Positions 6,865 to 59,329 of a DNA stretch of 64,000 bases are shown here, one piece after another. This stretch comes from Bryoerythrophyllum caledonicum (Eukaryota; Streptophyta; Bryopsida; Pottiales; Pottiaceae): contig OZ020516.1 in the NCBI GenBank assembly GCA_963971425.1, forward strand, positions 16,852,593-16,916,592, in the 5' to 3' direction. The notes beneath the pieces are model-generated. The model had not been told where the DNA came from. It saw only the letters and a program-made list of their open reading frames with translations, and did no database searches. The position numbers and the translations under genes were made by a program. How positions within the stretch are numbered: position 1 is the first letter of the stretch; every line of letters starts with the position of its first letter.

Positions 6865-7232
6865 GGTTTGAAGATTTAAGGTTTGAAGATTTAAGTTTTG
6901 ACTTTGATCTCGATGAAGTTATTTTTCAACAAGACACTGCTCCTGTGCACACGGCTAAGATTGTTCGAGAATGGTTTTGGGAGCAACCACATGATGTTAT
7001 GAAGTGGCCTCCTCAGTCTCCCGACTTGAATCCCATTGATCATGTGTGGGCTTATGTGAAACGAAGTTTGAATTATTATCCCACTGCTTCAAGGAATCTC
7101 CATGAATTGTGGACCCGTATTGAAGAGGTTTATGCTTCTATCAGTGTAGATGAGTGTAGGAAGTTGTATGCTAGCATGCCTGCTCGAATCACAGTTGTTT
7201 TGAAATCAAAAGGAAGTTGGACGAATTTTTGA
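6843..7232 (+). pseudogene. Tc1/mariner-type transposase, C-terminal fragment
   Basis: This encodes the end of a DDE-type transposase. It carries the second catalytic Asp in FQQDTAPVHTAK and a third acidic residue in SPDLNPIDHVW, 34 residues apart, which makes a DD34D arrangement as in mariner (Tc1 proper has DD34E with PIEN). A C-terminal helical tail follows, ending in TGA. The DNA-binding half and first catalytic Asp are missing; the sequence loses similarity upstream of about 6905. It is therefore a 5'-truncated, non-functional copy. I see no terminal inverted repeats nearby. Confidence 0.85.
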
Positions 7233-20200: not shown

Positions 20201-20737
20201 TGTGTTGGATGTGTTTATGGCATATGATGTTATTAATGGGGTATGTGGTAGGGTTTTTGGGGATGTATGTTGGGGGACGGGGGTTGTATGTATGTGGGGG
20301 GTTAGGGGGATTGATTGGTGTGGGGATATTTCTTGGGTATATGTTATTGTTGAGGGTGATGAATGAATCTTTAAGTATATGGGAGTATGGGTGTATGTTA
20401 CAGGAAGTATTACATGTAGTGGAGCATGTTTGGTGGCAAAATAGTTGTTTAGCGACATTTAGGGCACTTTTTATTAGTTTGGATGGGATGAAGTGGTAGG
20501 TTTTCAAGTCCTCATTGTTCATGATGTGTGTGCCGTTGGATAAAGTAATTTGGGTTTCTTTGAAAATATTTTGTGAGAGGAATTTTTGTAGAAGCTTTTG
20601 GGAGAGTTGGGCATTGAGTGTGTTGTGGTTTAGTGTTTCTTGGCGCCATAGTGTTTCTAGTGATGTAGGATTGATGAGGAAGTTTGGGAGTGTACTTTTG
20701 AGGTGGACTTTAGCTATGTGTTTTAATAAGAAGAATG
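17205..20737 (-). mobile_element. Non-LTR retrotransposon, 3' half: RNase H, CCHC finger, restriction-like endonuclease
   Basis: Read on the minus strand from 20737. A long frame to about 19083 includes AIHWARLAAKHDPNSTNTII and has one TAA at 19839; a frameshift follows. Then comes RNase H: YYTDGSF, a frameshift near 18895, ELMAI, TDC and NEQAD supply the four acidic residues. Next is a finger C-x2-C-x9-H-x4-C (CPIC..H..C, near 18150). Last is a domain with LKPNIL, IQFIEFTYC and KIDKY spaced like the R/KPD..E..K-KY of restriction-like endonucleases in R2-type elements; the usual Asp is Asn here. The end is a 3' tail with hairpin and CTT run. No reverse transcriptase is present: the element stops where the CAGGGTT element begins at 20738. 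RNase H plus this endonuclease recalls the Dualen group. Two frameshifts and stops make it inactive. Confidence 0.8.
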
Positions 20738-20860
20738 CAGGGTTACCAATCCGACGTCCTTGGGGGTTGGAGAGCGTCGTAGGACGTCCTAGGACGTCCT
20801 AGGGCGAAGACGTCTTGACGTCACGTCGGACGTAGCATCCGGCGGGGGGGGATAAAATGC
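20738..20860 (+). mobile_element. CAGGGTT terminus with GACGTC array (element A)
   Basis: The sequence changes abruptly from retrotransposon to CAGGGTTACCAATCC followed by a cluster of GACGTC/ACGTCCTAGG palindromes. CAGGG ends are typical of hAT elements. The same start, with the same kind of GACGTC cluster, occurs in reverse orientation at 40748 next to a hAT transposase. The matching far end of this copy is not found. Confidence 0.7.
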
Positions 20861-20959
20861 TTTTACGGGAGGCCCTGGTAAGTTTCTGGACCATCATATT
20901 CGATTAAGTGCCACGCAGCGAGATCGCAGCCGTGAAATTGCGATAGGTCGTCCAATCGG

Positions 20960-21150
20960 TCCTTGCCGTCAGAGCGATCAGACGGCACCTCGGCCGTCCG
21001 CCTGATCGTGCGGGCGCACGACGGCCGTCCGATCAGGCCGACGGCTTTCGGGCCGTCCGATCGGCCGGCCGTCGGATCCACGGACAGCCGTGGTGGCGGT
21101 CGGCCTCATGGCCGTCCGCCACCCTATAAAAGGCCGTCCGCCGCCCTCTT
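20960..21150 (+). promoter_or_regulatory. CGGACGGCC array and TATA box of element A
   Basis: A GC-rich array has about six copies of GGCCGTCCG in either orientation, then TATAAAA at 21125-21131, then a C/T-rich leader running to the kinase-like gene. The array precedes genes at 29.2, 33.2, 40.6 and 58.3 kb too. It may serve as promoter and as transposase-binding subterminal repeats; the second role is inference. Confidence 0.65.
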
Positions 21151-21441
21151 CTCTTACTTTTTCTTTCCCCTCTCAAAATATATTTTTGAGTGGATGTATA
21201 GTGGCTTTGGCTGGCATTTTTCCATTCATTGGCTCCTCATCTTTGGGAGGGAATAAGTGATTCACATTGGAGGGGAGGTTTTGCGGTTTTTTAAAGTTTT
21301 TTTAAAAATTTGTTCGAAACAGTTTTTCCTTAAAGTTTTTTTAAGAACTTATTCCAAACTAGTTTTTTCCTTAAAGTTTTTTTTAAAATTTATTCTAAAA
21401 AGTTTTTTCTTAAAACTTCGAACGGCGGCGGGTTTAAGAAG

Positions 21442-22926
21442 ATGCCGAAGGACAAGAAGAAGTAGAAGATGGCGGACTTTGGAGTAAAGCTTCATCCAAT
21501 CCACGACGTTCCATCTGAGGCTTGCAAGAATTTCCTCATAGAACTGACCGTCAGATTCTATGAGGAAAGTTCTATTCAATCATTAGAGAGCAAGTACGTC
21601 AGATATAGAGATGAAGGCCCCGAAAAGTTCCGGACGGACATGCGACAACATATGATGGACGCGCTTCAAGCCCCGATGTGGAATATGGAGACCCAGAAGC
21701 GCGGGTTTTTGAAGTTCTTGGATGCCAGAGTGCACGGTTCACTATGGAATGCCAAGAACTTGTTGACCAAGTTTGGGAGGTTCAATCGCGCGACGGATGA
21801 AGTTTTCATTGACGTGCTTTTGAAGGCGGATTTAATCGTGGCCCAAATGAAGCCATTTGCCAAGAATCGAAACCGGCGTGGCTCCGTGGGATGGTGGAAT
21901 TCGATAGAGGGGCACCAAGAAGACATGTTGCGAAAAGCCCATCTCATTGCCATTCCGCCAACAGCCGCGGTTATACGAATGGACAATGCGAACAGGAGAG
22001 GTGGATACGCCACCATTCGCAAAGTCCGCATTGAGGGCGCTCCAGGCATTGAACCATTCTGGGAATTTTCCGCCAAATTGTCCAACCAATCGGAGACACG
22101 GCCGAATTTAGCAAAAGTGGAGCATTAGAACGAGTCGATGGCGGTGAGGATTCCACATCTGGGTGTCATCCGTTTTGTGGCCATTCATCCGGACAAGTAC
22201 GAAGGATATGCGTATTGGTGGAATGGCAGGACAATTCGAGAGATGTTGAACCAGGATATCGAGTTTGGTGACGATGTCATCACACATTTGAACTATGGGA
22301 GATTTCCCGATGATGAGATTATTCGAATTCAACAGTTGGTTCGTTTTCGCAAAAAACCGACCAAGCTTGCGTGGGCATTGTTGCGCATTATGAACGAGGT
22401 CCACAAAAGCAACAATCTCCACAATGACTTGTCTCCGGACAATATCCTCCTCCACTTCCCTCCAGACGAATCGCAAGTGTATATTGGAGTATGCAATTGG
22501 GGCATGACCACGAAGGTTAACGAACCAATGCAGTCTCTTTACACATTCACAAAGCGTGAAGATATAGCCGAGACTCTGCGAAAGCGATGGTGGGTGGATC
22601 CGCGGGTTGCATACTTGCACAAACCAGATGCGGGTGTGCAAATGATTCCAAAGTTATCGATGGCTTCAGAGGAGTTCGCTACGGCCCGAATAGCGCAACG
22701 AATCAACGCGCGGACAATGTCCATAGACTACGAGAATCTGCAACAGGAATCTTGGAGTTCCGTAGTATTCTCAAATCAAGAATTTGTAGATACATTTCAT
22801 ATGTACTTGGAGAGAGTCTGCAATGAAAACCGAGAAAGCGCTGGAGGGCTGTTTCATATCATTACACGCTTCAGCGACACATACAACTGGCCCACGCCTC
22901 ATGAGCATTATCGGTCAACGTATTAG
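21442..22926 (+). pseudogene. Element-borne protein-kinase-like gene, two in-frame TAGs
   Basis: One frame of 494 codons from ATG 21442, interrupted by TAG at 21463-21465 and 22126-22128; the next ATG is at 21469. A ~170-residue N-terminal region of unknown fold precedes a kinase-like domain. The N-lobe has a Gly-rich strand (RRGGYATIRKVRI) and EFSAK at the VAIK position; the second TAG falls in what should be helix C (VEH*NESMAV). The C-lobe has the catalytic loop HNDLSPDNILL, keeping catalytic Asp and metal-binding Asn, but VCNWG replaces DFG, so one metal ligand is lost. It resembles a degenerate or pseudo-kinase. It lies directly behind the element A promoter array, so it is probably cargo. 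The 3' end of the element is not visible. Confidence 0.75.
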
Positions 22927-23200
22927 TAATACATAGGTTTTACTTTATTCCTTTCCGCATTATTAGACTATACTAGATAGCATGCACATTTTAAAGTGAC
23001 TATAGCAATAGTCTTAGATTAATATGTATTGCATGCCTTTAAAATTTGGGCACAAGAAGTAAAAAAACCTTGTTTCATATAGCCGTGCAAAGACCGACAT
23101 TTTTTGAATTTTATATGGTTTAGGTTGTGGCATACTTCCGATTTTTTAACTTATCAATGTGTTCTATTTCGGATTTCTTGTATTTCAATTTTTTTTTTAA
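22927..23200. other. 3' flank of the kinase-like gene
   Basis: AT-rich sequence, likely 3' untranslated. I see no terminal repeat that would close element A. Confidence 0.4.
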
Positions 23201-23204
23201 ATTT

Positions 23205-24350
23205 ACCTCAAAATATCCAAATTCAACCTTATGATGATATTTCCCTATACACCAATTTTTAGAGGTAGAAAAGAACTGTAGCAAACTCAAATCAAGTGCG
23301 CAAATACTGGAGTTTAAAAATTGCCATTCCACGTTTTAGTTTTTTGTAAACTATATTAGATTTCAAATGATAATCCAAACCTAGGTTTAGGTAGGTTTTC
23401 AGTGTTCACTACATGTTGTTGAAAAAGCAAAATGTGTAAAATATGATGATCTCTAGGTTTTATATAGAGAACACGTATATCAAATTTTACAAGTTTCGGT
23501 TCGAATTTTTGGAATAGATCATAGTGTCCATGGCACTAAATCATACATAACCTCAACCATTTTATGTTTCTTGAATACAATTTAGCATTTATAGAAATTA
23601 CCCCCATTTGAAACGCCTCCTCAGGCCCGACTCCCTACTCATACAACATGTCTCCTATTTCCCTAAAAATATCGTGACAATTTTGCACCCAAAACACTTC
23701 AAAGTTGTTGGATTCTAGTGCAATGACCATAGAAGGAAACCAAAAGTTTGATTTCTAGTTCTGACCGTTGGATCTCAATTAAGACTTATTAAAAAATATG
23801 TTTACAAAATTTCAAAAACTTTGACCGCACAGATTGAAAGATTATAGTGTGTGAAGTGAAGCAAATGGTTTAGGATCTTCACTGCGTTTAATGGATCCGC
23901 AGACTTTGACTTTACCAAGTGTCAAAATTTTGAACTACAAAAGGTCTAAATCCACTACCTTAAGCATGATGTTAGTTCCTTAGACAACATTTTTTTGAGG
24001 TAGAGGACAGGTGTAGCGTATTCAAAACAACTATGGAAGTAGTTGGAGGTTCAAACTTTGCCAATTCAAACTTTTTTTTCTTGTGAACTTAATGTGTTTT
24101 GGATTACTAGTCCGAATGGTCAATAAGAAGGTTTACACCACATATTAATGTAGAGAAAATAAAATGTAACAAATACAAAGATATGTAGGTTTTATGTGAA
24201 AATTAATAAGATCTTTTGGTACCTCGCCCGACAATGAGTGACAATGTGTGAAAATGTTTGACTTGGGTTGGTATGCTATTTTTAAAATTTTCAATAAAGA
24301 GAAGACTTGTTTTTTCAAGGGAACGGTGAAAAACATTGTTTCTCATGAGG
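23205..24350 (+). repeat. Dispersed repeat family, partial copy plus fuller copy
   Basis: A partial copy near 23245-23345 (CACCAATTTTTAGAGGTAGA) is followed by a longer copy at about 23740-24340. The longer one has TTTGACCGCACAGATTGAAAG, GATCCGCAGACTTTGACTTT, AAGCATGATGTTAGTTCCTT and AAGAAGGTTTACACCACATA. Block order equals that at 3.5 kb. Confidence 0.75.
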
Positions 24351-24853
24351 TTTTCCATGACATTGTCATATACATTCTTCTAAATATTTACATCTGAATC
24401 AGGTGCATAGAAAAGTTAAAAGTTTGATTCAAACTTTGCATGTTTAGGGTTCATGCACGCTTTGGCGACGTCCTCTTCCATCCAATTGTATTCTTTCCTT
24501 GTCCATCATCATATTATTGTTTCAAATGAGATTTCAAATGAGACACCTTACATGTCTTGTAAATGAATATCGCCATATATAACAAATTTGAAAACACAAC
24601 CAACACTAACACACAAAAAACATGCATGAGATCGAATGTGATGAACATATTCTCTAGCCATAGTCTACATCCAAAGTTTTGTCCCTAAAATGTTATTTTG
24701 AAATACACTCCAAAATGTCAAATTTTCGAAACTTTTGTACTAATTTTTTTGCTTATCTACTAGATGAAAATGCACCTAAAAAGCCCAAATCCGAAGTCGG
24801 AATTCCAAAAAAATGAATATTTTGGAAGTTATTAACTCGCTGTTAAGTTAATT

Positions 24854-25496
24854 CTGCCAAAAAAATAGTTTCATCCACTGTGGATGAAATTCTATGCGGC
24901 GGAAGAAAAATCTCGCAGCGGATGAAAATTTCCACAACGAATGAAAATAGCGCAACGAATTAAAAACAGGCAGTGGATGAAAAAAAAACTGTGGATGAAA
25001 AATTAGAATGGGAATGAAAATCAGACTGCGGTTTAAATGTTTGCAAATTGCAGCGGATGAAAATTAGACTGCGGATGAAATTTTGAAAAACTAATTATAG
25101 TATTAAACTACATTACAATGGTTGGACTAATGCGTTGCAAAGCAAGCGCCAACCGCTAGTTTGCATCTATAGAAGTTTAGTACTGGTTTGTGCTTGTTTT
25201 GCAACGCATTATAAAAACCACTTTAATGAATTTTCTATATTATTTAATATTAATAAAAAAGACTCATTTCAAAATTACTTTAAAAAAATTGGAAGACTAG
25301 AGAAGGAGCGGGTTACAAGCATTAAGTGTTTCTTAATAGTGTTCGTGATGATTCTTAACACTTAGCAATAGTCATTCACAGACGATTTTTCTTCTGGAGA
25401 TTGTTTTTCGTCCAGAGACTATTTTTTCAACCACGGACTGTTTTTCCATCCTCTGACTATTTTCATCTACAGTGGATGAAATTGTAATTTGGCCAG
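24854..25496. mobile_element. Small inverted-repeat element (~640 bp)
   Basis: Outer ends are inverted and related: CTGCCAAAAAAATAGTTTCATCCACTGTGGATGAAA trimmed to its core TTTCATCCACTGTGGATG on the left, TTTCATCTACAGTGGATGAA on the right. Between them lie runs of a short GCAGCGGATGAAAAT-type repeat on the left (24895-25078) and its reverse-oriented counterpart on the right (25380-25480). No ORF. It looks like a non-autonomous terminal-inverted-repeat element; target-site duplication is uncertain. Confidence 0.6.
25111..25228. other. Long imperfect hairpin, miRNA-precursor-like
   Basis: Left arm 25111-25154 and right arm 25185-25228 pair over about 44 nt with a ~30-nt loop. The strongest part is AATGCGTTGCAAAGCAAGC against its near-complement GCTTGTTTTGCAACGCATT. 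Size and shape fit a small-RNA hairpin precursor, but many small inverted-repeat elements fold this way and no transcript evidence is available. Confidence 0.5.
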
Positions 25497-25840
25497 ATTA
25501 TATTAATAGTTGATATCGGCTCTCTAAGTAGGGTTTTGATTTAGTTGAAAAAATAAATTGTGTAGAATATTTTCCAAAAACCACATTCTTGTGAGTGTTT
25601 ATAAAGCATTTTAAGGAAGTTCAATGCCTAACTCTGTAGGTAGATTGCTACGACATATTTACTCGGACATCTAGAACCATAACAATTTTAAGCAATGAAG
25701 TATATGCAATCATTAATACAAACATGCATACATTAAAATGTACAGGCATTCAAATATGAATAGCAAAAATGCTTATAGGAAGATTTTGTTGTATTCATTG
25801 ATATTGTGTAATGTATTTGGTATACTACTTCGTGTACTCT
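25497..25840. other. AT-rich spacer
   Basis: No gene or clear repeat is seen between the inverted-repeat element and the truncated retrotransposon copy. Confidence 0.4.
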
Positions 25841-25849
25841 ATAGAGTAA

Positions 25850-27310
25850 TTTCCACACACTAAAATATCCTTAGAGCATAACTTATGGCCATACACAAAC
25901 ATGACAAATCATCACAACACAATACAACAACAAACGCGCACACATATTCATTGACTGTATCAATGCACTTTATCTACTAAACATCCAAATAACAAACCCT
26001 ATCCTCTACAATAGCCATCTCGACCAAACTATTTTAATGTCGTTGGTTCACACGTTACAAAACTGAACACATATAACAACCCTTCACAAAGTTCTGCTCA
26101 AGCAAATATGGATGGAAACGAACAAGCAAATAAACGTGGAAAAGAGGTCCGCAAAAAAATGCATGAAAATGCCAAAGACTCGTACGAACATCCACATGCT
26201 ACCCCATACTACTTCCAAAAAGAAGATTGGCCTCCTAAAGAGGATACCCCCGTTAAGGTTCGGTTTTATTCTTGAACAAATATCTCAAGAAACAAGACCT
26301 CTATAACAACCTTGACACAATCAAATAAAACTTCCCTAATATAGAATAATGGGTTGGCAACAACAAAATAGATTATGAACTCTCTACGAATTCTTGGAAA
26401 AATCCCATCATCTCGAACTCACAAATAACATGTGTCACCAAATTCCGTAATAGTCGATATGTGGGAAACGCCCGAAAACAACTCTTATTTGGAATAGAAA
26501 AATTCCCATATGTAACATGCCCCATATGCACTTTCTCAGACCCCGACAAATCACTCCATGTTCTACTGAAAATGCCAAAACCATCACATACACTCCTTAA
26601 TTGTCACAAGACATAACAAAGCAATATGGGAAATTCAAAAACTATTTACCTCCCATAACAAATCACGATGATTTATCCTCATGAATGCCGGCACCTTTAA
26701 TAACAAGTTACAACCCACAAGGAAATACGGTCCCCCCTTGGCTACTCCCGAGTCCCATGTACGTGCGCAACTTAGCATTGTCTTTGTAACGCTAGACTCA
26801 AAGCCAACATACTTTGCATTCGGGGCCTACCATACAATGACCCTGCACCCGACTACATTAACCAAGAGTATACCATTCAATTCATCGAATTCACATATTG
26901 TAATGATAAATTCTCCCCGGAAACAATTGAAAACAAAATAAATGAATACCAAGTTACCAACCCAACAACCCCTTATTAATGACATCGTTGCCCTCGGATG
27001 GAAAATGGACCCGCTTATTGTAATCACTGCCGACGCTCGTGCCACCACCTTTATCCCATCTATAAATATCCTTTCCAGATACCTTTAAAATCTCCATCGA
27101 AACAATTTCACACACTTTCAATATTAATAACACCGTTGCCATTCAACAGGCCATGTCCATTCTACTACACCAACGCAAAATTGAAAAGAAACCAAGCCCT
27201 CCCCGACACGGTGTCTGGTGGGCAAGGTCTTAGTGATGGAACGAACAAATTCTTTATTCACGCCGAACCCTTTGCGGACCGGCGTTTCTCTTCTTGCTTT
27301 AACTTCTAGG
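25850..27310 (+). mobile_element. 5'-truncated second copy of the RNase H/endonuclease retrotransposon
   Basis: On the plus strand, fragments match the minus-strand element at 17.2-20.7 kb in order: FIDCINALYLLNIQI of RNase H (near 25945), PYYFQKEDWP in another frame, the finger CPICTF (near 26520), FIEFTYCNDKFSPE of the endonuclease (near 26880) and KNQALPDT before the tail. The tail at 27215-27305 has GAACGAACAAATTCTTTATT and the hairpin CGCCGAACC..GGACCGGCG. Many frameshifts are present. The 5' truncation inside RNase H is typical of incomplete reverse transcription. Confidence 0.8.
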
Positions 27311-27666
27311 TGAGAAATACTCAAGGAACTTTAGAGGTACAGGTTGTAAAAAAAAATTGTTTAACATGAAATGATATGAAATACTCTTTAACTTTTATGA
27401 GGTGAATGAAAAGTTGGAATGTATAAAAATTTCTCATTCCACACATCCACATATACTAAAAAATTATCAATAAAATTCATTTGGAAACACGTAGCATGCA
27501 TTGTACATTCATCATCCACATTGACATGGCCGCAACGTAGAAATATTTAATAAACATCAATTTGAAGATCTTAAAGAATGACCTTCTAAATTTACATAAT
27601 AGTCGACATTGTTCTCGCATGAAGACATTATCTACATGGATTACATTACACAAAGACCATGTATGA

Positions 27667-28718
27667 TTAATTGGAATCTGAGTCAGTATCACGTCTTTGA
27701 CTTGGCCCAGCGCCACTTGAGTACGGCCCGCTTGAATAAACATCATATAAGTTATTGTATTGCCTGTTCATGTAGCGAGATTCATCTTTGAGCCTGCGGA
27801 TGTACTCGTTCTGGCTTTGTATTGTGGCTTCATGCATTTGTCTTTCAAACTCGGCATCTTCGTTCTGACGAGGTGGAAACGTTGATGGAGGTGTGTTGTC
27901 TCTCCCATCTAATCTCCGGCCATATCCATCGTAAGGATGGCCATATACGTCGTAATAGACGTGTCCAGGGTTTGGAGTGTCGTGTTCTTTCTCTTTTCTG
28001 GGGGAATTACGACCAGACTCGTACGTATCCCTTGGATCAGTTCGAGTATAGCTCTAAGGGGTGTTGGTCCCTGTACCACATTGGCCCGCCTTCGTAGTAA
28101 TGGCTGCCACTCCCCCCACCAAATGTTATAGGCGCGGAATCCATATCATTGCCACGGTTGTAGTCGTTGTAGTTATGTCCCCCGTACTCTTCTGGAGGTG
28201 TCCGCCGTTGTTGGTGGGCATCGGAATCGTCCCTGGATCTTCGGTTTGACCAACGTGGCCAACAGTCACTCGGTTGATTCCAGGTGGTTGGTATAAAATG
28301 GGCAGTTCGATCCATCAGGCTGACATTCCAGCCCGCCACGGTGCGCCAATTCCACATCCTTGTGTAGGACAATTTCCGCCCAAAACATCGCCATGTTCGA
28401 ATACAACATGATCTCCGGCCTCGAGTTGCGCACACCCACCGCAACAGTGACCTCATGATATCGATGGCGGAAATGGTCGCTCAGACAATTGCTCGCTAGA
28501 CCTTCGCGCCGCGGCCCCGATATCCTCGCTTGTGCCCTGGGCCACAACTTCATGAGGTGCTTTATCTTCACGTACCTCTTGCACATGGTGCAAGTCCACA
28601 GCCTCTCTTCCTCATCCTGCCATCTGTACTCCGCAACAACATATGGATCGTCCGTTGCGTCCCAATCCATCTCGAGCGCTTTCCCCTTTGGTGCAATGGG
28701 CCGGTTGGACCTTGGCAT
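27667..28718 (-). pseudogene. Element-associated CxxC protein (family X), decayed
   Basis: Read on the minus strand from ATG 28716-28718. The first 150 codons encode a protein with WTCTMCKRYVKIKHLMKLWPR and later YSNMAMFWAEIVLHKDVE; then a frameshift near 28300 and another near 28040 lead into a Tyr/Gly/Asp-rich, coiled tail ending at TAA 27667. The two quoted motifs are clearly homologous to the gene at 33.5 kb (TCKKYVKMYHIDKLWPR, YSLLSMVYTEVVLKRKVD), so they define a family. The paired Cys suggest a metal site. Function unknown. Its upstream side leads to a CGGACGG array at 29.07-29.29 kb, as in the other elements. Confidence 0.6.
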
Positions 28719-29074
28719 CTTCCCTAACTAGAACAAACAATTAAATGAATGAATGGGAATTAACCCCTAAAGTTCCTTGACAATTTCCCTCAAAAACTAT
28801 AAGTGATACTAACTTTCAAACCACAAATCCAAAAAATAAAATAAAAATGTGTCTGCGAAGCTCTTATAAAAAGCAATCTAGAATACAAATTTCAGAGAAA
28901 ATTGATTTGTTTTCGAATTTTAGGAACCTGCCCAAAAATCAAGGAATCCCCCCGAAGGAGACTCTCGTCATTTACAGGTTAAATGAATTATGAAATAATG
29001 AGCCACTTGAGGGGGCGCAAGCGATTCGGCAGAATATACCAAAGCGACCAGCTTGCCCACTAGAGTGTGGGAGA

Positions 29075-29290
29075 AAAGTCGGCCGTCCGCATTTTATGCC
29101 GACCACAAGTGGCGGACGGCCTCGGCGGACGGTCTGCGAATCGTCCGAGCCATCCGATGGCGGGCGGCCTCGGGCGTATCGCCCGATCGAACGGCCACGA
29201 TGCCGCCACGGACGGTCGCAGCCGTCCGATCAGTCGCAATCGTCCGATGGGTCGCAGTCGACCGATCGGACGGTTGAGGCCGTCCGCGGC
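29075..29290. promoter_or_regulatory. CGGACGGCC array of element B
   Basis: About nine copies of GGCCGTCCG/CGGACGGCC or one-base variants in 215 bp, far more GC-rich than the surroundings. It resembles the arrays at 21.0, 33.2 and 40.6 kb. The adjoining C/T-rich strand on the right (29300-29400) resembles the leader of elements A and C, so the orientation of transcription is uncertain. No CAGGGTT end is seen. Confidence 0.6.
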
Positions 29291-29409
29291 TGACCCCGAT
29301 CGGTCGACCTCCCATCTTCGGTCCTCCACTTCCTTACGCTCCCTTCCCTCCCAACTCTCTCCCTTCTCAACTCCATTCCCTGGTCCTCCACTTCCTTTTC
29401 TGGAACGGT

Positions 29410-32400
29410 TGACTTTGTACGTGTACTCCAGATCTGGAGATCCAGTCACGTGCTTTTATGGTCGGAAGAATGTCTGGAAGATTTTGTGCGCATTCACGAG
29501 GATATTCCATTGTACGCGTGGAAGCACAGTTTTATATAGTTTCTTAATAATGGTTCCACTTAAAATATCTTACATAACATGTAAGAGATGCTCGTTTCCT
29601 TTTTTTATGTTTGACTCACCAGGAGGAAATTGAAATGGCCCACGGGCACAATGTTCCAAGGGCCAAGGGTACATTGCCCACGGCATAGGCATAACTTTAT
29701 ATGGGAGGATTTTTGGCCTCTACATGAGTAAATCTCCTTCGCAACGAGTTTTTAATTTTGGGCAGGTTTCTAGATTGCGAATATGAAGAAACAACTTTCG
29801 AAATTTTTATGTTACTTTGTCCCTGGGAAGAGCTATTTGAATGTATTAATTAAATCTTTTTATAGATTTGTGGTTTCAAATTTAGTACCACCCATAGTTA
29901 AAAAAAGGGAAGCACGGGCATCTAAAATCCTTTTATAGAATTGTCTATTGACATTCACTCATTGAGGTTTTTCATACTCATCTGAAATATTTTTTTCTTT
30001 AAACGTTTCCCAAAAAAATGATGGTCTTCATTGTAAATTCGCATTTTATTCGAAGTAAAATCATTTCACCATTGTGCAATGTGCAACAAAAATTCTTCTT
30101 TTCCTCAATAAAACTTACAATTTTTTTTTGTTTTTTTCACTTCTTCTTTTGTTCTCCGAAAAGATGTGATGTACACCGATTAATTGACCAATTGCAATAT
30201 GGATAAGCATTTTTAAAAGATATTTAGTTCACAAGTGAATGTAATGTGAATTGGCCATTCTCGAACCTCCACTTGTTGTTGAATTTTCTCGAAGATGCTA
30301 CACCTCTCTTTTACCTCTAGAAATTGGTGTATTGGATATGAACATGATGCCTAACTTTTAAGACAATGGTAAAAGATTTGGAACTCATGTACTTCAAACA
30401 TTACATAGACACCAGAATCTATCGATTCTTGCGATAGTTTGCAACTAATACAATATGGTTCATATATTTGGTTCCTATCGACCGCATGGATAATTAAATC
30501 ATGGGGTTTACAATCCAAACAACAACTTATTCTCTTCCCTGCGTTGATCCATATTCATGGGACACTATGACTTTGACAACACTTCGTATCATATTTAAGT
30601 AATATGCAAGGTCTAAATATTTTACCCTTGTTTGAAACTCTAAAGGAACATGGCCAATTTAGCTAAAAAATTAGTCCAAAACCGTCACATCGAAAAAGAG
30701 GCATAGCAATCACATTTTTCAAGTGATCTTTAGAATTTAAATCGTAAGATCCTAAAGTAGACTTCTATATGAACACACCATGCTCTTATGGTTGCAATCC
30801 CCCACATGGATTGATAGATTACAGTGTGTAAAGTAAAAAAAAAATGTTCATTTTCTTCCATCGTTAACTGGTATTCTAGACTTTGACTTTTCTTTCCCTA
30901 AACCCTGATCCAATCCAAAAGTTCATAATTTTATATTGTTCTGTGAAGCTTGATGTTAATTCCATATACACCAATATAGAGGTAAGAAACGGGAGTAGCA
31001 TATTCAAACAAATTTGTGCAAGGAGTGGAGGTTCAAACATGGCCAATTCACATTTCACTTTTTTGTGCACCCGACATCCTTTTAGAATGTTTATCCAAAC
31101 AATGAATGAGAAGGTTTATAACACATTTTGTACAAGAGAAAACAAGATGTTTCAAATTTAATAAGATGTACATTTATAATTGTCCCTCTCTCTCTCTCTG
31201 GTTCTCTTCTCCTTCTAGTTTACTTGAGAGTTTAATTTTTATTTGGTTGTCCCTCTCTTCCTTTTGTATTATTTTCTTTCTACTTCTCTCTAATTTCCTA
31301 CACTTCTCTTCTACATCTTCCGTCTAACATTTTCTTCTCTTTGTATTTCCATTCTAATCTCCAACATGGAACAAAACATAATATCCAATGTGGTCATATT
31401 AGTAATTGTTTAAGCATGACATAGCATAACATTACACCAAATTCCAGAAATGTATTACTTAAACAATTTATTAAATGCCATGAATTTATACAAAAACCTA
31501 AAGGATGCAGATTGTGCACTGCCGGAATTGGCATGACAAATCATTTGTTGGATCCTACAACCCAAATCAACTAAATATTCAAGGGTGCCCACACTGTCCC
31601 ACCACATTTTAATCGTCTTCACTAAACCACCATGGTTGGCACTATTTGTATGTATTTATGTATCATGAGTAAAAAATGTTGATCAAAATCTATAGTCCAA
31701 ATCCCGCCATGGTTGAAAGATTCTTCGGTTGATATACATAAAAATTGCTACAACCCGAAAATCTTCCATCCAAAGCACGGTACGAATTATAGTTTTAGGG
31801 TTGGAAATTTATTTTTTTTGTTGGAGAAATAGTCAAGGTAATATAGCATTATGTATATATAAAAATTGAACGACCCTAAACGCCTTCACAGAAACTACAA
31901 ATTCAATTGGTCCACTATTGAAATTCTTTGCAATTTCCGGTTCGAATCCTAGAACGATAAAGGTCCACAATGGCAAGATGAGTTTGAATTGTAGTTTTTG
32001 TAGATTTTCATAGTCACCCATGTTGGAAATGGACCCATTTTTAAAGCAAGTTTATTACAAACTTATCAACGTTTCAATCCAAAAAATTCAACAATTTCCA
32101 CATGGCATTCACATGGCAAATAATTGGTGTAATGTAACATATTTCTTACATATAAATTAAAAACTAGCCCCTTCATATATACTAAACCCTTAACCCTAAA
32201 CCTAAGGGTGCTCTTTTTATCTCCGATTTCGAATCTAGTATTACTTTTTCAAACATATTTTCAGTCCAAATACAATTTAACATTAACCCCTAAACATCCT
32301 TGGGGGATAGAAACACTGAAATACAGTAAAAAATCCCTCAAAATTAAATTCCATGTAGAGCTCAATGGGAGAAAAATATTCAAAAAGTAACCGTGAGATC

Positions 32401-32500
32401 CTCTTCAAACATAGCCAAATAATAAGTGAGCCAATTCTTGTGTACTTTGGACATGATTTGGGCCTCTATCCACTCCAAAAAGTGCTACGTTTGGGGGCTG
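29410..32500. other. AT-rich, repeat-laden region
   Basis: No gene is supported. It contains another copy of the dispersed repeat: an inverted piece near 30245-30335 (GAACCTCCACTTGTTG..CCTCTAGAAATTGGTG) and a direct part at 30780-31130 (GTGCAAGGAGTGGAGGTTCA, GAAGGTTTATAACACATTTT). A CT-rich stretch lies at 31175-31330. The rest is featureless. Confidence 0.5.
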
Positions 32501-32514
32501 AAATTAGTCGGGCA

Positions 32515-32690
32515 GACCCTCGCAGCTGTTGTTGAGACCCATCAGCTATTGTCGGGGCCCCAACGACTGTTGTTGGGACCCTAGCAGCTATTGCTGGGGG
32601 CCCCAACCACTGTTGTTGGGGCCCTTTTAGCTGTTATTGGGGACCCTAATTATTGTTGTTGGGGTCCCAATTAGTGCGGATGGGGCATAG
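32515..32690. repeat. ~21-bp GC-rich minisatellite
   Basis: About seven degenerate units of roughly 20-23 bp of the form CAGCTATTGCTGGGGGCCCCA / ACCACTGTTGTTGGGGCCC, alternating two sub-variants. It contains self-complementary GGGGCCCC centres. Non-coding. Confidence 0.7.
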
Positions 32691-33179
32691 TATGGATTTC
32701 AATATGCAACCCGGTTTAGAAGAACTGATTCAAATTTCAATTGTTGGATGTTTTTCATTTATAAAATCATAACGTTCAAAGTTGAATCAAAACTTCTTTT
32801 TTCCTTTGCCTAAGAGGCAATGTCTAGATGGTGCGTAGGAGGACTTCATCATTGTTGCCCCTAAATTTTTTCTCATACTTTTTTCTATGTAGGAAACTGA
32901 GTTAACTATGAAATTCTGTGAGTACATTACTTATTAAGTCTTAATTGAAATCTCATGGTCATAACTAAAAATTGAAGTTTTTTTTTCCTTCTTTGATCAT
33001 TTCACTATAATCCAATACTTTTGAAGTGTTTTTGGTGGAAAACTGTCACAGTACTTTGACATTAACACCTTCCATTACTTTTAACAAAGGAAAAAACAAA
33101 GGAGAAAAAATGATAAAAAAAGGAAAAAAAAGAAAAAAAAAAGAAAAAAAAAAGATCCAAAAAAAAAAGTCCCAGGAGG

Positions 33180-33302
33180 CTGGCAGACGCGAGCCCGGCG
33201 GACGGCCTGCCGGCCTGGTGGGCCCGACCGATTGACCGTCCGCCGGTTCGGACGGCCACCCGGTTAGGTTAGGCGGCCGTCCGCATATACATGCGGACGG
33301 CC
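33180..33302 (+). promoter_or_regulatory. CGGACGGCC array with perfect 12-bp palindrome (element C)
   Basis: After an A-rich run (33085-33172) comes a GC-rich array with CGGACGGCC in both orientations. It ends in a perfect inverted repeat: GGCCGTCCGCAT at 33275-33286, a four-base loop, and ATGCGGACGGCC at 33291-33302. A C/T-rich leader like that of element A follows, leading to the gene at 33510. Confidence 0.7.
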
Positions 33303-33509
33303 ACTTCTTTTTTCCTCACTTCCTCTCTTCTCATGCCGAGTCAGATGTGCTGCACTTACGGTTTTCTGTACTTGTTGCTCTTACTAGGTGACAAAATGGG
33401 GGTCCTTTTATTGTGACCAGATAAACCGTTTCTTAATTTTCCAAACCATTCATTCACAAATTAATACCGGAGTGTCCGCGCTTGTTTATTTTTAAAAGCA
33501 AGCGTTATC

Positions 33510-34067
33510 ATGGCGACGGAGTAGCAGATCGTGGTAGAAGATGTGAATGAAATTGGAACGGGAGAGTCGAAGAAACGGTTCAAATAGAAAAGTGCTACTC
33601 ATGATCTACGGTGGGAGATTTTGGACAATGAAGACATTCAAGCGGAGGAAGGTTGGGAGGCTGAAATGGAGGATTACTGGGTATCGAAGACATGCAAGAA
33701 ATACGTGAAGATGTACCACATTGATAAACTTTGGCCAAGAAATTGCCACATAAGTCATACGACTTACTTTGCTTGCAAGCCGTGGATGTGCAAAGATGAT
33801 CACTTCATTCATCGTGCGGAGGAGGTTTGGCGGGCTTTATTTGGGAATCGCCCAAGAAGCAAAGGGTTTTTCAATTATAGCCTTCTATCAATGGTATACA
33901 CCGAGGTCGTGTTGAAACGAAAGGTAGATTGGAGCACGTTTCCGACTACAAAACAATATCCGCTTAGGATTGGGCAAAAACATAAGCATATTCCTGATTT
34001 ATTCAATCCTGAATCTACCTTGACCAAGGCTATTTTGGAGGAGTTGAAGAAAAACCTCGTCAGATGA
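33510..34067 (+). pseudogene. Second family X (CxxC-type) protein, two in-frame TAGs
   Basis: The frame starts at ATG 33510 and carries TAG at 33522-33524 and 33585-33587 before an open stretch to TGA 34065-34067. TCKKYVKMYHIDKLWPR and YSLLSMVYTEVVLKRKVD align with the minus-strand gene at 28.7 kb. The N-terminal stretch around the TAGs is still readable (Lys/Glu-rich, then WEILDNEDIQAEEGWE). It sits directly behind the element C promoter array. Function unknown; a metal-binding or DNA-binding role is only a guess from the Cys pair and basic residues. Confidence 0.65.
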
Positions 34068-35440
34068 CCGTGGTGGATACCATGCCGAATATACAACCAT
34101 CGATGGAGGAGGTTGCCGTTGTGATAGAGTTTGACAAACATTTGGATATTGTGGTCGACAATATATTGTCAACCACAATTTCCAAAGAGACTTTGGAGAC
34201 AAAGACGGTAGAAGACCCCGTACAATCAAATATTCCGAATATTGCGATTGTAGGAGGTGAGGACAATGGTAACGCGGAACGAGGGGGGGGAAGAATATGG
34301 ATGGAGAAGAAACCGTTGTTCCAAACGTTCAAACTTTGGAAGGCATGGCACCGAAGACAATGGATGCCGGGCCAAGCACTTCAAGGCGGGAAATACTGGA
34401 ACCAAATTCCAAGGACCCGATCATTGATAAGGGTACTTTGATTTCCAATATTGAAGAAATGCTTCGAACAATGCCAAACAAGGATAAGTTGAAAGGCTTG
34501 CTCGACTTGAGTATTAAGTGGGCTGAAGCGTGCGCTCAAGTAACAGAATTTGGTCATCCAGTCGATTTGCCAATTGATTCGAACGAATGGGACCAAATAC
34601 ATGGAATAGTCAGAGTGACACGTATTATGATGGACGGGATTGAAATTCTTGCAGCAATGGCTCCTTATCTTCTAGATATAGCTCATACGTTTTCAACTAT
34701 CACTCCGAGTGTGCTACTAGCCGCTGATGGCTTCGACACGTTGGCTTCCTCTATAACGCCAATGTTTAAAGACAGGATTGCACTAACTCAGAAAGTGATG
34801 CATATGGAGGAGGAGGTCCATAAAAATGAAATGCTCACTAGACACCTTAAATGGGAATTGGAAGATAACAAGCGACAGTTGGAGTCCAGTAGGAGACTCG
34901 TTACAAAGATGTCGGAGAAGATGAATGCGTAGGGTCGTGAGGTGGATGTGGTAGTCATTGAGGACAATGCCGGAACTTCTGACGACCTTTCTCTTTCCAA
35001 GTTTGGAGGGAATGATGCAGAGGATGCCACACCGGTCAAATCTAACAGACCGGCTGAGTCATCTTCTGTTTAATTGGCAGTACCAGCTGGGAATAGCTAA
35101 GTACGGCCAGCAGCGCCTGGAAAAGGGAAGGCGATAGTGGAAGGTGAGGGGGAGATGGAATCGATGTCACAGAAGTTGGAGGTGGCAAATAAGGAGAGAG
35201 ACGAGGCACGAGCGGAACTAGAGACACTGCGGAAGACATTGAGATCGGTGGACGACACACCATGGAACGAGAACACAATGCTTTGGTTGGGTTGGGTTGA
35301 TCGCCTTTAGGACATGGAACCATGGTCTCGAAAGCACAACATGATCTCAAGAAATTTGCCGCCGAATCACAAGAATCATGTGAACTCGTGGATAGATCAT
35401 TGGAGAGATTGAAGAAATTCGTTGAATAACGTGGACATGA
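34068..35440 (+). pseudogene. Element C second coding segment, coiled-coil, decayed
   Basis: A continuation in other frames: 34068-34285, then a shift in a run of eight G (34283-34290), then an open stretch to TAG 34930. Beyond that the frame resumes with TAA near 35071, another TAA and TAG at 35308-35310. The 34297-34932 part is helical with a C-terminal coiled coil (MEEEVHKNEMLTRHLKWELE); the later part is again coiled-coil-like (KLEVANKERDEARAELETLR). No catalytic motif is seen. It may be the rest of the same protein as 33510-34067 or a second gene. Confidence 0.5.
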
Positions 35441-35477
35441 GTTCACGAAGGTTACTATTTGAGGTGATGTACCGGAG

Positions 35478-36679
35478 ATGATGGATCGCACAAACTATCA
35501 TCGGAAGGGAAAGAGCCATGGTATTGACTGGGCTTCAGAAGTGGAGGAAGGATGGTTGCCCTACAATACCTTCTCATCACATTTTGTAGAATCGGAGCGA
35601 AGAGTAATCCATACTTGCGACCTTGTTCCGGCATTCCTCAATGACAAATGCAGCTTGTGCCAAGATCATTTCGGTCCGGAGGGAGCGTATACGTTGGGCC
35701 AATGTGGCGATAACTTTTATATTACTTGCATTTCCGCAGGTTCTATGATATAATCGGCATGTCCTATGTGCCGCTCTCCAATTAGCACAAGATTCTATGA
35801 AGTGATGGGGATAAGAGATGTTATGCCACCGGTGCACGAGTTCAACCGATGGAATCTCCCCTTGGATCAACTTCCGAAGAAATCCTTGAACTATCGTGAG
35901 TGGGAAAACCACTTATGTGAAATAGTGAGTTTTCTTCTCACCAACTATATGAGGAGTATGAGATGGAAATTGATCCATTATTTTGGATGACACAAGACTA
36001 TGAGGTCGAGATACGGGCGCGAGAGATTGAAGATGGCGAGCAACAAGAGTTGTTTTACCGCAACTTTGGAGGGCATTGGAGCACTATGCACAAGCGTTTC
36101 TTCCGATTTCCTCCAAGGAGAGCTGAGAAGGGAGAAGATGATGTATGGCATGAGGTAAACGATGGCATTGAGTTGAGAGATGAGTAGAAGAAGTACAATC
36201 GTACTTTGGTGGAAAGAGCCTTGGTCCTTGCAAAGTTGGAAGAGTCCGTAAAGCTACGGAGTTCAACAGAAGAGGATTCTTTTAAAGACGTAGACTGTTC
36301 TTATTGGGATGCGGTGCAAGCATTTGATTGGAAGATTGGGGACATCATTGGTTATTGGCGGAACGTGCTACTGAAATCGGAAGAGAAATTGTTGGTATCA
36401 TTTTCAGAGAATGACACTTTTGTGAACAACGTGGTCGAACGAATAAAGAAGGCCATGGAAATCTTCGTGGCGAAGAAGGTGGATCTTGGCGGAAAGCGGA
36501 AGAGGGATGATGGCAATGACAGCGACGATAGTTGGTGGTCGGAGATGCATAGGGAAATTGCAACCGTGGATCGAGAGTACGAAGAGGGGGAGAGGATTGC
36601 TAGGCCAAGCCAAAGACCGCGGACTCGTAATATCACTCGAACGGATCATACCGACGAGCCTTCTTCTTCAAGGCAATAG
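35478..36679 (+). pseudogene. Element C RING-derived protein, decayed
   Basis: From ATG 35478 a frame with CSLCQDHFGPEGAYTLGQCGDNFYITCIS, given here only as its Cys pairs, then TAA (35751) and SACPMCRSPIS shows the layout of a RING finger: CxxC, CG..xxxC, CPMC. The zinc-binding His residues expected after CG are Asp and Tyr, so E3 ligase activity is unlikely. After RFYEVMG the frame shifts near 35960 and runs, with TAG at 36185-36187, to TAG 36677 through a Glu/Arg-rich tail containing GGKRKRDDGNDSDDSWW, a likely nuclear-localisation and acidic region. It lies on the same strand as, and directly after, the coiled-coil segment. Whether it was one gene or several is unclear. Confidence 0.6.
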
Positions 36680-36689
36680 AATATGGTAG

Positions 36690-37180
36690 ATGAATGTAAA
36701 GCTTAGCGTGGTTGTTATTTAAAGAATGGTGTGGCAAGAAGTCGGAAGCATGCCGTGGTGGGGCATACTTTTTGAAATAAAGCTTTACAATTTGTAAGAT
36801 ATTTTGTCATCTTGTTAATTCTTTAATTGTATCTAGGTGTTAGAAATATTGTGGTGCATCAAGTGACATGAATAGAAGTTTGCAAACTCGAATTACATTC
36901 TGCTTAAAACAAGAATGTCATGTTTAAGTCATTTTGTATGGAATGACTAAATCTATACACAGAACACAAGACAATAGAATAGCAAAAGAGATGGATGTAA
37001 AACTTGTGCATATATGAAATTTTTTTATTGATATTCGGAATAAATCCAAGAATCAATTGAGACAATAGAAGCTTTTAATGCATACGCAGAACGACTATAA
37101 AGTACCCTAAACTCGAACTACACTATTTACAAACAAAATAAGTGCGGTGAACGCATACTACGTAAATGGGCCAAATTTTC
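36690..37180. other. Spacer between element C and the hAT element
   Basis: AT-rich; probable 3' untranslated sequence of element C on the left. I looked for a CAGGGTT end and did not find one. Confidence 0.4.
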
Positions 37181-40100
37181 CTACTCATTCACGTCGGTAG
37201 GAAGTTCGTAATCGCTATCATCTTTGATTTCAGCTCCACTAGATCCCAAAGGGTCGTCTTGATTATCTGTGGCGAGTTCTTATTTGATTCTCCGTTTGAT
37301 CGACAATGTTTTAATGGTTTTGAATCTCTTAGAAGTTCTAATGATATCAATGGGATTACTAGGTCGCGTGCGAAGAAATAGATGCATGGGAGCTTTACGT
37401 TTCTTCGTGTCGTTTGTAGGCCACCTAGGTTGTAACCCTAAACCTCCCTGAACCTCGGGGTGCTATATGAAGAGCTTAGACAGAGGTACATCGCCATTAC
37501 TAGATAGGCCATCGGATTGGCGTTGCGGCGTTCGGGGTCGCACATGTTTTGAAAGGGACACCAAACCGTGGGAGGATTTCAAATTGGTTGTAGTGACCGT
37601 TGCAAGAGGGGTTGCAAATAGAGACCGCGACGCACGACCTTGCAAGGACGGTTGATTTTTAGAGGAGGATGCCTTCATCTCCGTAACGTGAATGAGACTC
37701 CGTGTACCGCCGTAAGTACCGCCCTCCATAGTTTTCTCTCCGAGAACAACCGTGTCGTCTAGGATTGGCTCTTTTGGTTGTTTGCTCGCGGTTCTCCGCA
37801 AGTGCGAGACCGTGGACGCCTTCCTCAACACTCTTCACTGAGGACCCTTGCTTTATTTGCCCGTGTAATGCCGTTGCACATGAGGATGATAAATCTTCTC
37901 ATCCTTTGTCCTTCGTGTCTTCCGGAAGCGGAGTCAGTCCACGACGAAGGATATTATTGCTATTGACCATGCCGTCTCCATTCAAGTACCGCGCTATGGG
38001 CAACAAGTCATCTTTTTTCTCTGCAAGAACGTCGTCATCGACAAAATCATACTCGGTGATTGGGGCGTCGTGAGTATGATCCATACGTTGAGAAGGGCTG
38101 CTGTCGATGTTATTGTCTAGATGTTCTGCATCGTAATTAGCAAGGGCACTGGTGCTTGAATCGTCAGAGTAGTCCTGGTCATCCAACACACGTGGTTGTG
38201 GATCTTCTAAATCCAAGTTCTCCGCGTATTACCTCTTCTCATCTGTCAGCTTTGCATTCGCAAGCAACTTCGAGTTCGTATACACAAAGACCAAGTCATC
38301 AGCCCTTCCCGATAATAACCGATTCCGTTTCTTTTCATGGACGAAAGAGTAGCTACTCCAATTGCGTTCGCAAGAAGAAGATGACACTCTCTGCGCTAGT
38401 ATTCTCTTTGCAATTGGTGCAAGGAGCTTTCCACAAGCACCTTCAAAATCCCACCAAGCATACGGAGAACATTTTTGGTCCTTAGGATTCAACATGTCAT
38501 GGAATGGTACATCCTTGTTTCGAAATGCAAGGAACTCGTTCACCACGTCCGGGTAAATCTTAGGATCACATAGCTTTTGTAGTACTCGTTTGCATGCCGT
38601 GATGACATCCGGATCATCGGCCAACTCTTCGTCATGGAGTAAATAAGGATTGAGAAGTGCACCAGCGGAATGTAAATCCGTGGTCATCATCCGTTTCCGT
38701 GCGTAGAACTCGTCCTCAGCAATGAACGCTAAATTGCTATCGAGACAGAATGGTTCATTTCGCAATTCTAGGACATGCTTCTCGAGGTCGCGAAGGATGT
38801 GCAAAACCTTGGGCATGCAAGGTTCCTTGGCATCGAATTCCCGAAGCGCATACACTACAGGGGCTACCATCTCTTGGAAGTTTGTGCACCGCTCCCAGAA
38901 ATGCTCATCTAGAACCACACTTTTTATGGCTCGAGAGATGACTACTTTATCTCTAGCCGAGAGTGACTTCTCAGAGGCGTATGCCTTCCATTCAGGATCA
39001 ACGACGGTTTGCTCCAATGATTCCTTGACCTTCAACAGGCGATCTATCATTATGAAATTACATGCAAATCTTGTTTGCCCGGGGAGCAATAGGCTGAACT
39101 TCGCCTCGTGTTTACGAAACACGGAGAAGAACATTTGCCGATTTTTGACAAACTTAATCAAGAACTTGGCCTTCTTGAGAGTTTCTTTTACCCATGTAGC
39201 CTTCCGCCACTCCTCCAACAATGAGTCCATGGCATGCACGGCTTATCCTTGAATTTATATGTGTGGATATTTCTTGAAGACCAATGCTGAGGCATTGAGC
39301 ATGATTGGAGCATTGTCAGTACACACCTGAAGAATGTTGTGGGGGCCAACTTGTTCAATGAACTTGAACATGATGGATGCCAGGTACGTAACGTTCTTTT
39401 CTTTGCCCGTAGTATCTACAGCTCCCAAGAAGAGCTCTACAGCGGGAGACACGAGCATTGCATTGTACAAAGGGCGACTAGTCACAGACGTCCACTCATC
39501 TATGGCTAGAGTTCCTCCAAACTTCCGAACACTCTCGAACAGTCTTTTATTGAGTTGTGCTTCCAAATCAGCATTCGCTTGTCCCAACAACCTTGTCCGA
39601 ATGTCATGGTAAGAGGGTGCGACATATGGTTTTTTGAAAGAGGCAGTCTTCATCACGACTTCCTTGAATGCAACATTCCGTGCTATAGCAAACGGCACGT
39701 TTGTTTCGTAGAAAAACTTCGCCCACACTTTGTCTAGCTCCCGCCGCTCCACTTCTTGAAAGCCCTCTTCGAGTACGGATTGCCTCACCAATCAGGGGAA
39801 CGTGGCACCTACACTTCCTAGTTTGGTGAAGTCGTGGAAGGTGGGGGTCGGTTCAACCATGGTTGATGGTAAAATCACGGGGGGGGGGGGTTTGAGTGGA
39901 CCCTACACAAGAATCTTCGCTGGTGGACTTGGGCGTGCTATATCATGAGGTAGGCGCAGATTTCAATGGTAGGGTGGGGCAATGTTCAGAGAAAAGTCTC
40001 CATTGTGTTTTGGGTAGTGGCCACAACAATTTTTAAACAAAGTCTATACGCGGGGTATCAATTTGGTGCAGAGGCCAACACCGCTATTGCGCTTGCCAGA

Positions 40101-40319
40101 GAGTTCTTCATACCCGAGATGACTTAGCTGTCGTTCTAGCCTTCTTGCAAAAATGCGGTGACAAAGATTGCATTGGACGGAGTCGGTCTTCCTGCCTTGT
40201 ACTTCAGTGATTTCGACATACCAAGGAGACCAAGGTATGGTCGCCATTCTGATGGGTGTAGTATCGAGAAATGAACAAACGTGATAGGTAGTATGTGAAA
40301 GAAATATCAAGAGTTCCAA
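37181..40319 (-). pseudogene. hAT (DUF659-type) transposase, decayed
   Basis: Read on the minus strand from about 40319. An N-terminal zinc-finger remnant (QCNLCHRIFARRLERQLSHL) is followed by broken sequence, then the catalytic core 39791-39255 with LAIDEWTS and VCTDNAP supplying two Asp. Two TAA codons (39240-39254 region) precede VHAMDSLLEEW. The long segment 39239-38229 ends in SSSCERNWSSYSFVHEKKR, the hAT dimerisation block with the third acidic residue. An acidic tail continues through several stops and frameshifts to TAG 37181. All three catalytic acids survive, but the gene cannot make an intact enzyme. Its 5' side leads to the array and the CAGGGTT end at 40748. An intact relative elsewhere could mobilise the related elements here. 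Confidence 0.85.
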
Positions 40320-40499
40320 AAGAAACTCTGATATTCAAGACTTCCGAACTCGATGATTACCAAACAATAGATACACAATGTAGCTCAAAGCTCTTGGGAA
40401 ACAAAAGTTCAGAAGTGAAGTGAGGCTCCATGTGCTGTTTTCTTTATACTCACGGTGATTACGACCGTTGTGGACGATTCATTGTCAATCTAATAGGGG

Positions 40500-40748
40500 A
40501 CGGGGGAGCTGTCGTGAGAAGGCCGTCCGCCGCGGTGGACGGCCACGCGGACGGGGGTTGCCCGAAGCAGACGGCCGTGCGGTCGGCCCAAGCGGACGAA
40601 ATGGACGGTCGGCCGGGCCTGCGGATGGCTATTTACCCTCGGGTAAACTGACAAAACTCGTTATGTCACTGGACGTCTTGATAGGCCCGAGGACGTCCTC
40701 CGTCCGGACGACCGCACGTCAGGGACGTCGAGCGTCCTGACAACCCTG
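40500..40748 (-). mobile_element. CAGGGTT terminus, GACGTC cluster and CGGACGG array of the hAT element
   Basis: Read on the minus strand from 40748: CAGGGTTGTCAGGACGC, a cluster of GACGTC/GGACGTCC, then GGTAAATAG and an array of GGCCGTCCG-type motifs, then the transposase start. This is the same order as element A at 20738-21150, which ties element A and its relatives to this transposase. Confidence 0.8.
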
Positions 40749-48670: not shown

Positions 48671-48672
48671 CG

Positions 48673-51975: not shown

Positions 51976-52254
51976 TTTTTTTGATGTTATGAATTCTAAG
52001 TCATCATTCAACCTTTTGAGTTTTTCACATTTGGGGATTCTTCAAGTAGTAGGATTGTAGGAGTAAAAAGTGTGAATGCTATACGATTACATAAACACTA
52101 TGGTGGGCTTGTCAGATTTGATTTTTGTTTTTATTTTTGTGTACTTGGATGATTTACCAATCATACGTTCTTCTTGAGATGATTAGTCTTTGGAAGCTTT
52201 GCTCTAGATTTTGTTGTGGGATGATATGGTAGCGAATCCTAGGTTGTCATGTTT

Positions 52255-52600
52255 ATCATAATTATATTAATTCCATAAACACCAATTTTTAGAGGTAGAA
52301 AAGGAATGTAGCGTATTCAGAAAAATTGTTTAGGAATGGGGGTTCAAATATTTGTCAATACACTTTCTATTTCTTTGTGAACTAAATATTTTTTAGAATT
52401 AGAATCCAAATGGTCAATGGGAAGGTTCACACCACATCATGTAGTAGGAAAAATGAAAAGTTAAAAAAATTAAGATATCTAGTTTGTATGTGGAATAGAA
52501 AAAGTTTTTGATACCTTGCCCAAGAATGTGTGAAAATGTTTAACTTTGGTTAAAATGCTTCTATACACTGAAGACAATATTTTCTTGAACATTTTTTTAA
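52255..52600 (+). repeat. Dispersed repeat family, partial copy
   Basis: Contains ACACCAATTTTTAGAGGTAG, GTAGCGTATTCAGAAAAATTG and GGGAAGGTTCACACCACATC in the family order. Confidence 0.7.
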
Positions 52601-58224: not shown

Positions 58225-58235
58225 ACCAGGATTGT

Positions 58236-58321
58236 TCGGCCGTCCGTCCGTCTGGTAGTGTCCGTCCGTCCGGCTGTCCGTCCGATAGAGGCTGTTGTTC
58301 GTCCGATAAGGGTCAACCCTG
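58236..58321 (-). mobile_element. CAGGGTT terminus and CGGACGG array (element E)
   Basis: Read on the minus strand from 58321: CAGGGTTGACCCTTATCGG followed by repeated CGGACGGACGGAC. It is shorter than the other arrays and lacks the GACGTC cluster. The flank GGTCAACCCTGGTTTGACC is itself an inverted repeat, which blurs the exact end. Confidence 0.55.
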
Positions 58322-58419
58322 GTTTGACCATGACTCGAGGTAAATCAATTTACCCACTACCACGAAGGCGACTACGTGGCTGACACGTCGTCAACAGGGT
58401 CACGCGCGTGCAGACAGGG

Positions 58420-58757: not shown

Positions 58758-58763
58758 CTCGCG

Positions 58764-59320: not shown

Positions 59321-59329
59321 CTACAATTA

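Follow-up and report, generated by a model that had tools for sequence, protein, structure and literature searches.

A decayed, probable four-gene hAT-superfamily transposon of about 20 kb in Bryoerythrophyllum caledonicum

Genes and repeat arrays of the locus

The stretch of DNA analysed, hereafter the window, is 64 kb long (C3:16852593-16916592) and belongs to a genome of 437 Mb in 894 contigs. Between 20738 and 40748 lie four genes in two convergent pairs: a kinase-like gene facing CxxC-A and, beyond a central spacer, CxxC-B with its RING domain facing a hAT transposase, with a repeat array ahead of each start. The features are listed here, E1-E6 and F1-F6 denoting copies elsewhere in the genome.

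20738..40748, plus strand: whole four-gene hAT element (probable), 20,011 bp and gapless; colinear with the paired copy E6, ends as in E1-E6
20738..20822, plus strand: A-end, CAGGGTTACCAATCC plus five GACGTC sites
20966..21140, plus strand: A20 array, whose inner edge bears TATAAAA
21442..22926, plus strand: kinase-like gene, broken (TAG at 21463 and 22126, NWG for DWG)
27667..28718, minus strand: CxxC-A gene, with a frame change near 28350
28768..33324, no strand: central spacer between the divergent CxxC genes; parts are common to E1, E3, F1, F3 and F4, and E6 has an assembly gap there
29083..29286, minus strand: B29 array, before CxxC-A; a counterpart array occurs in F1
33199..33300, plus strand: C33 array, before CxxC-B
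33510..36679, plus strand: CxxC-B gene with RING domain; in E6, CxxC and RING share one frame with two stops
37184..40247, minus strand: hAT transposase gene of about 1020 codons, with ten in-frame stops, three of which fall in a linker of low conservation, and a change of frame near 37.8 kb
40497..40711, minus strand: D40 array, three exact and eleven one-mismatch sites
40672..40748, minus strand: D-end, CAGGGTTGTCAGGACGCTC plus three GACGTC sites
58227..58321, no strand: E58 array, lying between CAGGATT at 58227 and a minus-strand CAGGGTT at 58321; outside the 20738-40748 element

The transposase gene matches the DUF659 (E 2.8e-23) and hAT dimerisation (E 2.9e-9) domains, and its alignments reach 65.5, 68.5 and 47.8% over 586, 349 and 203 columns, the first two of which overlap. 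It contains LAIDEW, VCTDNA and SSCERNW, which may hold the hAT catalytic D, D and E. The family has 150 relatives, 120 of them listed; the six among those 120 with an organism given are from flowering plants, at 26-30% identity. No solved hAT structure was matched.

The window copy of the kinase-like gene, previously placed at 20.7 kb, scores 18 bits, under the Pfam cut-off; 11 of 18 relatives match Pkinase. This family comprises 39 relatives among 138 candidates, and a weak predicted model (pLDDT 61) has a kinase fold; no host parent was identified among the 39 matches, which carry no organism assignment. CxxC-A and CxxC-B are 35% alike over 115 residues (E 1.4e-14), and 56 of 103 candidates proved to be relatives, nine nearer A and 47 nearer B. 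The predicted CxxC model has a confident core, with 135 of 203 residues at a pLDDT of at least 90, and found no fold match in the PDB. Arrays do precede both genes, as the preliminary description had it, but the gene it placed at 29.2 kb runs on the minus strand from 28718, and the CxxC motif as such is present only in this 28-kb gene. A RING-derived part had also been described after the 33.3-kb gene: in the window it falls below the Pfam cut-off (25.8 against 27.3 bits), but the same frame passes in E6 at 35.1 bits. There CxxC and RING lie in one frame, and CxxC-B is therefore read as one long CxxC and RING protein. Relatives of the kinase, CxxC and transposase (P0016, P0185 and P0063) each lie on a contig of 879,700 bases, which we take to be one and the same; the gene set would then occur together in another assembly.

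CGGACGG occurs 26 times in the 64-kb window against 1.71 expected, a count reached by none of 100 shuffles, and 25 of the 26 sites fall into the five arrays A20 (sites over 20994-21140), B29 (29083-29286), C33 (33199-33300), D40 (40523-40706) and E58 (58240-58284); the remaining one, at 21631, is inside the kinase coding region. All 14 window occurrences of CGGACGGCC are in arrays, every array having some, and each array beats shuffles of its own sequence (the largest fraction, for D40, being 0.0042 of 5000). GACGTC is found 19 times in the window against 7.06 expected, with eight of the 19 in the A20 and D40 ends, clustered on the outer side of each array. On its own, CAGGGTT shows no enrichment across the window (12 against 9.45; 22 of 100 shuffles reach 12). 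An inward CAGGGTT outside the array is found within 100 bp of two of the five arrays (0.004 under random placement) and within 250, 300 and 500 bp of three of the five (0.0008, 0.00165 and 0.00675 respectively). The combination of array, CAGGGTT and GACGTC cluster reported at 20.7 kb and, reversed, at 40.7 kb is present at the A20 and D40 ends.

All four gene starts are preceded by an array, at a distance of 302 bp for the kinase, 365 bp for CxxC-A, 210 bp for CxxC-B and 250 bp for the transposase. A C/T-rich leader, earlier said to accompany both ends, is raised on three of six array sides, namely A20, C33 and rightward B29 (0.72-0.73; about 0.02-0.03 each, uncorrected), but not at D40 (0.43, counted from 40497), nor on leftward B29 (0.62) or E58 (0.42). 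B29 is also flanked by a leader-like inverted pair, at 28795-28983 and 29712-29899, 66% alike.

E58 has a CAGGGTT-type end near 58.3 kb, in agreement with the preliminary description. Exact 8-bp flanks (ATCCAAAC) bound 58227-59144, from CAGGATT to a TAGGGTT-type end, this being one of 1977 candidate pairs; five of 120 letter-permuted motifs give such a pair, none of the 120 beside an array, and the right flank lies inside a 12-bp tandem, AATCCAAACCCT.

A number of other features occupy the window. A minus-strand retroelement with RNase H and PCIF1_WW (17405-20737) has a frame that runs into the A-end, and a second retroelement piece, 77% alike, lies on the plus strand within the four-gene element (25862-27209). 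Beside the D-end is an inverted-repeat element (41045-43773) with arms of about 430 bp, 86-96% alike. Dispersed AT-rich repeats, about 59-79% alike, occur both inside and outside the element (3394-3893, 23111-24281, 29977-31175, 52252-52587 and 59253-60369). Further out are degenerate ACCCTAAA-type repeats (945-1902), a DDE_3 endonuclease fragment (6753-7232; E 5.9e-12), a TIR-domain frame (9604-10623) and an open NB-ARC/LRR gene (48637-51975) in which a 72-bp LRR unit is repeated 20.4 times at 92%, its RPW8 match being under that domain's cut-off. The last two, the TIR-domain frame and the NB-ARC/LRR gene, give the window a plant-like character.

Copies elsewhere in the genome

The joint end pattern of CAGGGTT followed by GACGTC matched 612 times forward and 718 times in reverse, against 135 and 128 for a reversed control (1330 against 263), although the 1330 matches take in other end types too. 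Two recurring types, all on C1 among the matches listed, correspond to the window ends at 20738 and 40748 and face each other. An additional end type, CAGGGTTGTCATACTGGACGGACGTC, recurs many times on C1 among the matches listed, and probably marks a further hAT family whose ends are of the GACGGACGTC type. Seven facing pairs of A- and D-ends were picked by eye from the matches listed.

E1: 10,549 bp, two duplication mismatches
E2: C1:6547901-6554580, 6,680 bp, no mismatches
E3: 11,852 bp, one mismatch
E4: 10,546 bp, no mismatches
E5: 7,231 bp, no mismatches
E6: C1:13548916-13565461, 16,546 bp, no mismatches
E7: 26,131 bp, six mismatches

The 8-bp duplication is exact in four of the seven pairs, has one mismatch in one and two in another, and fails in E7, which was dropped as a paired copy for its six flank mismatches. 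Swapped flank pairings of E1-E6 (n=30) gave 3-8 mismatches. The expected hAT family with CAGGGTT ends and 8-bp duplications is thereby borne out in E2, E4, E5 and E6 exactly, and in all six copies allowing up to two mismatches, but not in the window copy, whose flanks (GAAGAATG/GACCAAAT) mismatch at four of eight positions, within the swapped range; the window copy therefore either has one altered flank or is composite. For 20738, 40748 and 58321, the window by itself yielded no partner end clearly above chance. CAGGGTT forms the terminal inverted repeats of the window element and of E1-E6, the pairs having themselves been picked by that motif; past CAGGGTT, the A- and D-ends are unlike each other. 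Clustered subterminal repeats are provided by A20 and D40 in the window; arrays are also present in E1 and E3-E6, with none in E2.

It is very improbable that the arrays are ordinary promoters shared by unrelated host genes, with CAGGGTT nearby by chance. The array-to-start spacing would suit such promoters, as would the unenriched CAGGGTT in the window; however, a lack of paired ends and target duplications is contradicted by the six other copies, and the colinear block is itself multi-copy.

E6 contains all four genes in window order between an exact duplication. Identity between E6 and the window segments 20738-28767 and 33325-40748 is 92-93% internally and 78-89% towards the ends. The 4.6 kb between these halves coincides with a 200-N gap in E6, whose four genes are therefore linked through scaffolding. 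In E1, E3 and E4 the kinase and CxxC-A are seen, and in E5 the RING side and transposase, each copy having a 200-N gap in place of the remainder; E1 reaches 1.8 kb and E3, with breaks, 3.4 kb into the window's central spacer. E4 has complete, uninterrupted reading frames for the kinase (494 aa, start 932) and for CxxC-A (410 aa, start 8799).

Six further D-ends, F1-F6, were read for 24 kb each. From its D-end F1 runs without gaps through the transposase, CxxC-B, an array, spacer, an array and CxxC-A, the match being lost at window position 26753, which confirms the D-end half and centre of the element. F3 has the same order with a gap; F4 has CxxC-B and a transposase into which an insertion has come; F5 and F6 have transposase pieces, F5 also having an additional A-end at 2,488 bp with two flank mismatches and a gap; and F2 has only a distant CxxC-A. 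No kinase was found in the 24 kb read of any of F1-F6, nor an A-end in that of F1. The family is multi-copy in the genome, its copy number being a rough impression.

Fusion in the window of two neighbouring elements, one with the kinase and CxxC-A and the other with CxxC-B and the transposase, would account for the mismatched window flanks and for copies with only one side (E1, E3 and E4 against E5). We consider it improbable: both halves lie inside E6 between matching flanks, F1 and F3 keep the order from D-end through transposase, CxxC-B and central arrays to CxxC-A, and where copies look partial, the absent portion falls at a 200-N gap. Cargo-only, non-autonomous copies, which had been proposed, are not proved, because each apparently gene-less copy holds such a gap.

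E2 stands apart, having ends 99% like those of E4 (163 and 124 bp) around unrelated DNA. This interior, bacteria-like by eye, contains frames matching UDPG_MGDP_dh_C (E 2.4e-32) and a caspase domain (E 1.7e-14), along with a weak glycosyltransferase match; E2 includes a 200-N gap, and its interior may be either foreign cargo or a mis-assembly.

A single element and its proposed working

From its sequence, the segment 20738-40748 is very probably one decayed copy of a four-gene hAT-superfamily transposon of about 20 kb. The preliminary description saw the right parts, and genes besides the transposase are indeed carried, each behind an array, in E6 and the window; however, it took one element for a promoter-sharing family whose members carry different genes side by side, whereas all four are in one element colinear with E6. 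The window copy is dead, with ten transposase stops and mismatched flanks. An intact transposase was not found among the copies matched: every one (window, E5, E6, F1 and F3-F6) is interrupted or read in more than one frame, and the present mobility of the family is putative.

In this reading the transposase would excise the element at its two unlike CAGGGTT ends, and insertion would create an 8-bp duplication. Promoter function for all four genes is the most likely role of the CGGACGGCC arrays; since the central arrays are not terminal, they suggest that an array is a promoter at the least. The end arrays most likely double as sites bound by the transposase. The other proteins, namely the kinase, RING and CxxC proteins, would belong permanently to the element and might regulate transposition or the response of the host. 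Tentatively, we propose that a lineage of hAT transposons has a built-in control module. Its kinase, its RING protein and its two members of a family with no PDB fold match would influence transposition or host silencing in trans; expression of each would be driven by the CGGACGGCC array, also recognised by the transposase, and the set would have been kept together across several species.

It is conceivable, though somewhat doubtful, that the accessory genes are instead inert hitchhikers, captured once in a Pack-hAT-like manner and copied along without a role. Gene capture of the hAT type is documented in PMC8903248 and PMC3260210, and the accessory gene copies are broken in the window and E6. 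However, E4 has a full-length, stop-free kinase and CxxC-A, each gene has kept its own array, and relatives of the kinase and CxxC families persist in public contigs at 28-87% identity to the queries. A 20-kb hAT element that combines a kinase, a RING protein and a new protein family, multi-copy in this genome and with relatives of each gene family elsewhere, would represent a cut-and-paste transposon equipped with permanent accessory functions, and it makes testable the idea of a transposon regulating itself or its host by phosphorylation or ubiquitin.

Comparison with known transposons

Elements of the hAT superfamily are best known as single-gene transposons, Ac/Ds of maize having an 8-bp target duplication, whilst the genes of the non-hAT element MuDR are convergent and driven from its ends. 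The present element has four genes in about 20 kb, in contrast to one gene in 4.6 kb for Ac/Ds, and differs from it further in having internal CGGACGGCC arrays and ends that are unlike beyond CAGGGTT. It shares with Ac/Ds, as treated in PMC3260210, a hAT transposase, a CAGGG-type end and short subterminal repeats; the same paper describes AAACGG subterminal repeats bound by the Ac transposase, the position occupied here by the end arrays, and calls gene capture by hAT elements rare.

Pack-hAT and other Pack-TYPE elements similarly have coding DNA other than that of a transposase between hAT ends (PMC8903248). Here, however, whole genes are present, each behind an array and from families found in other genomes; E6 and the window combine a transposase with passengers in one element, unlike Pack-hATs, which have a host-gene fragment and no transposase. 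According to PMC8097297, the zf-BED domains of hAT proteins frequently favour CGG, a preference that fits their own subterminal regions, where such proteins bind CGG sites; for the arrays here, binding is a prediction. MuDR likewise pairs a transposase with a helper gene, whose function PMC2563033 gives as unknown. Here too convergent genes are seen in the sequence at array-bearing ends, from which they may be driven as in MuDR, whilst the hAT transposase, the four genes and the central pair of arrays set the present element apart from MuDR.
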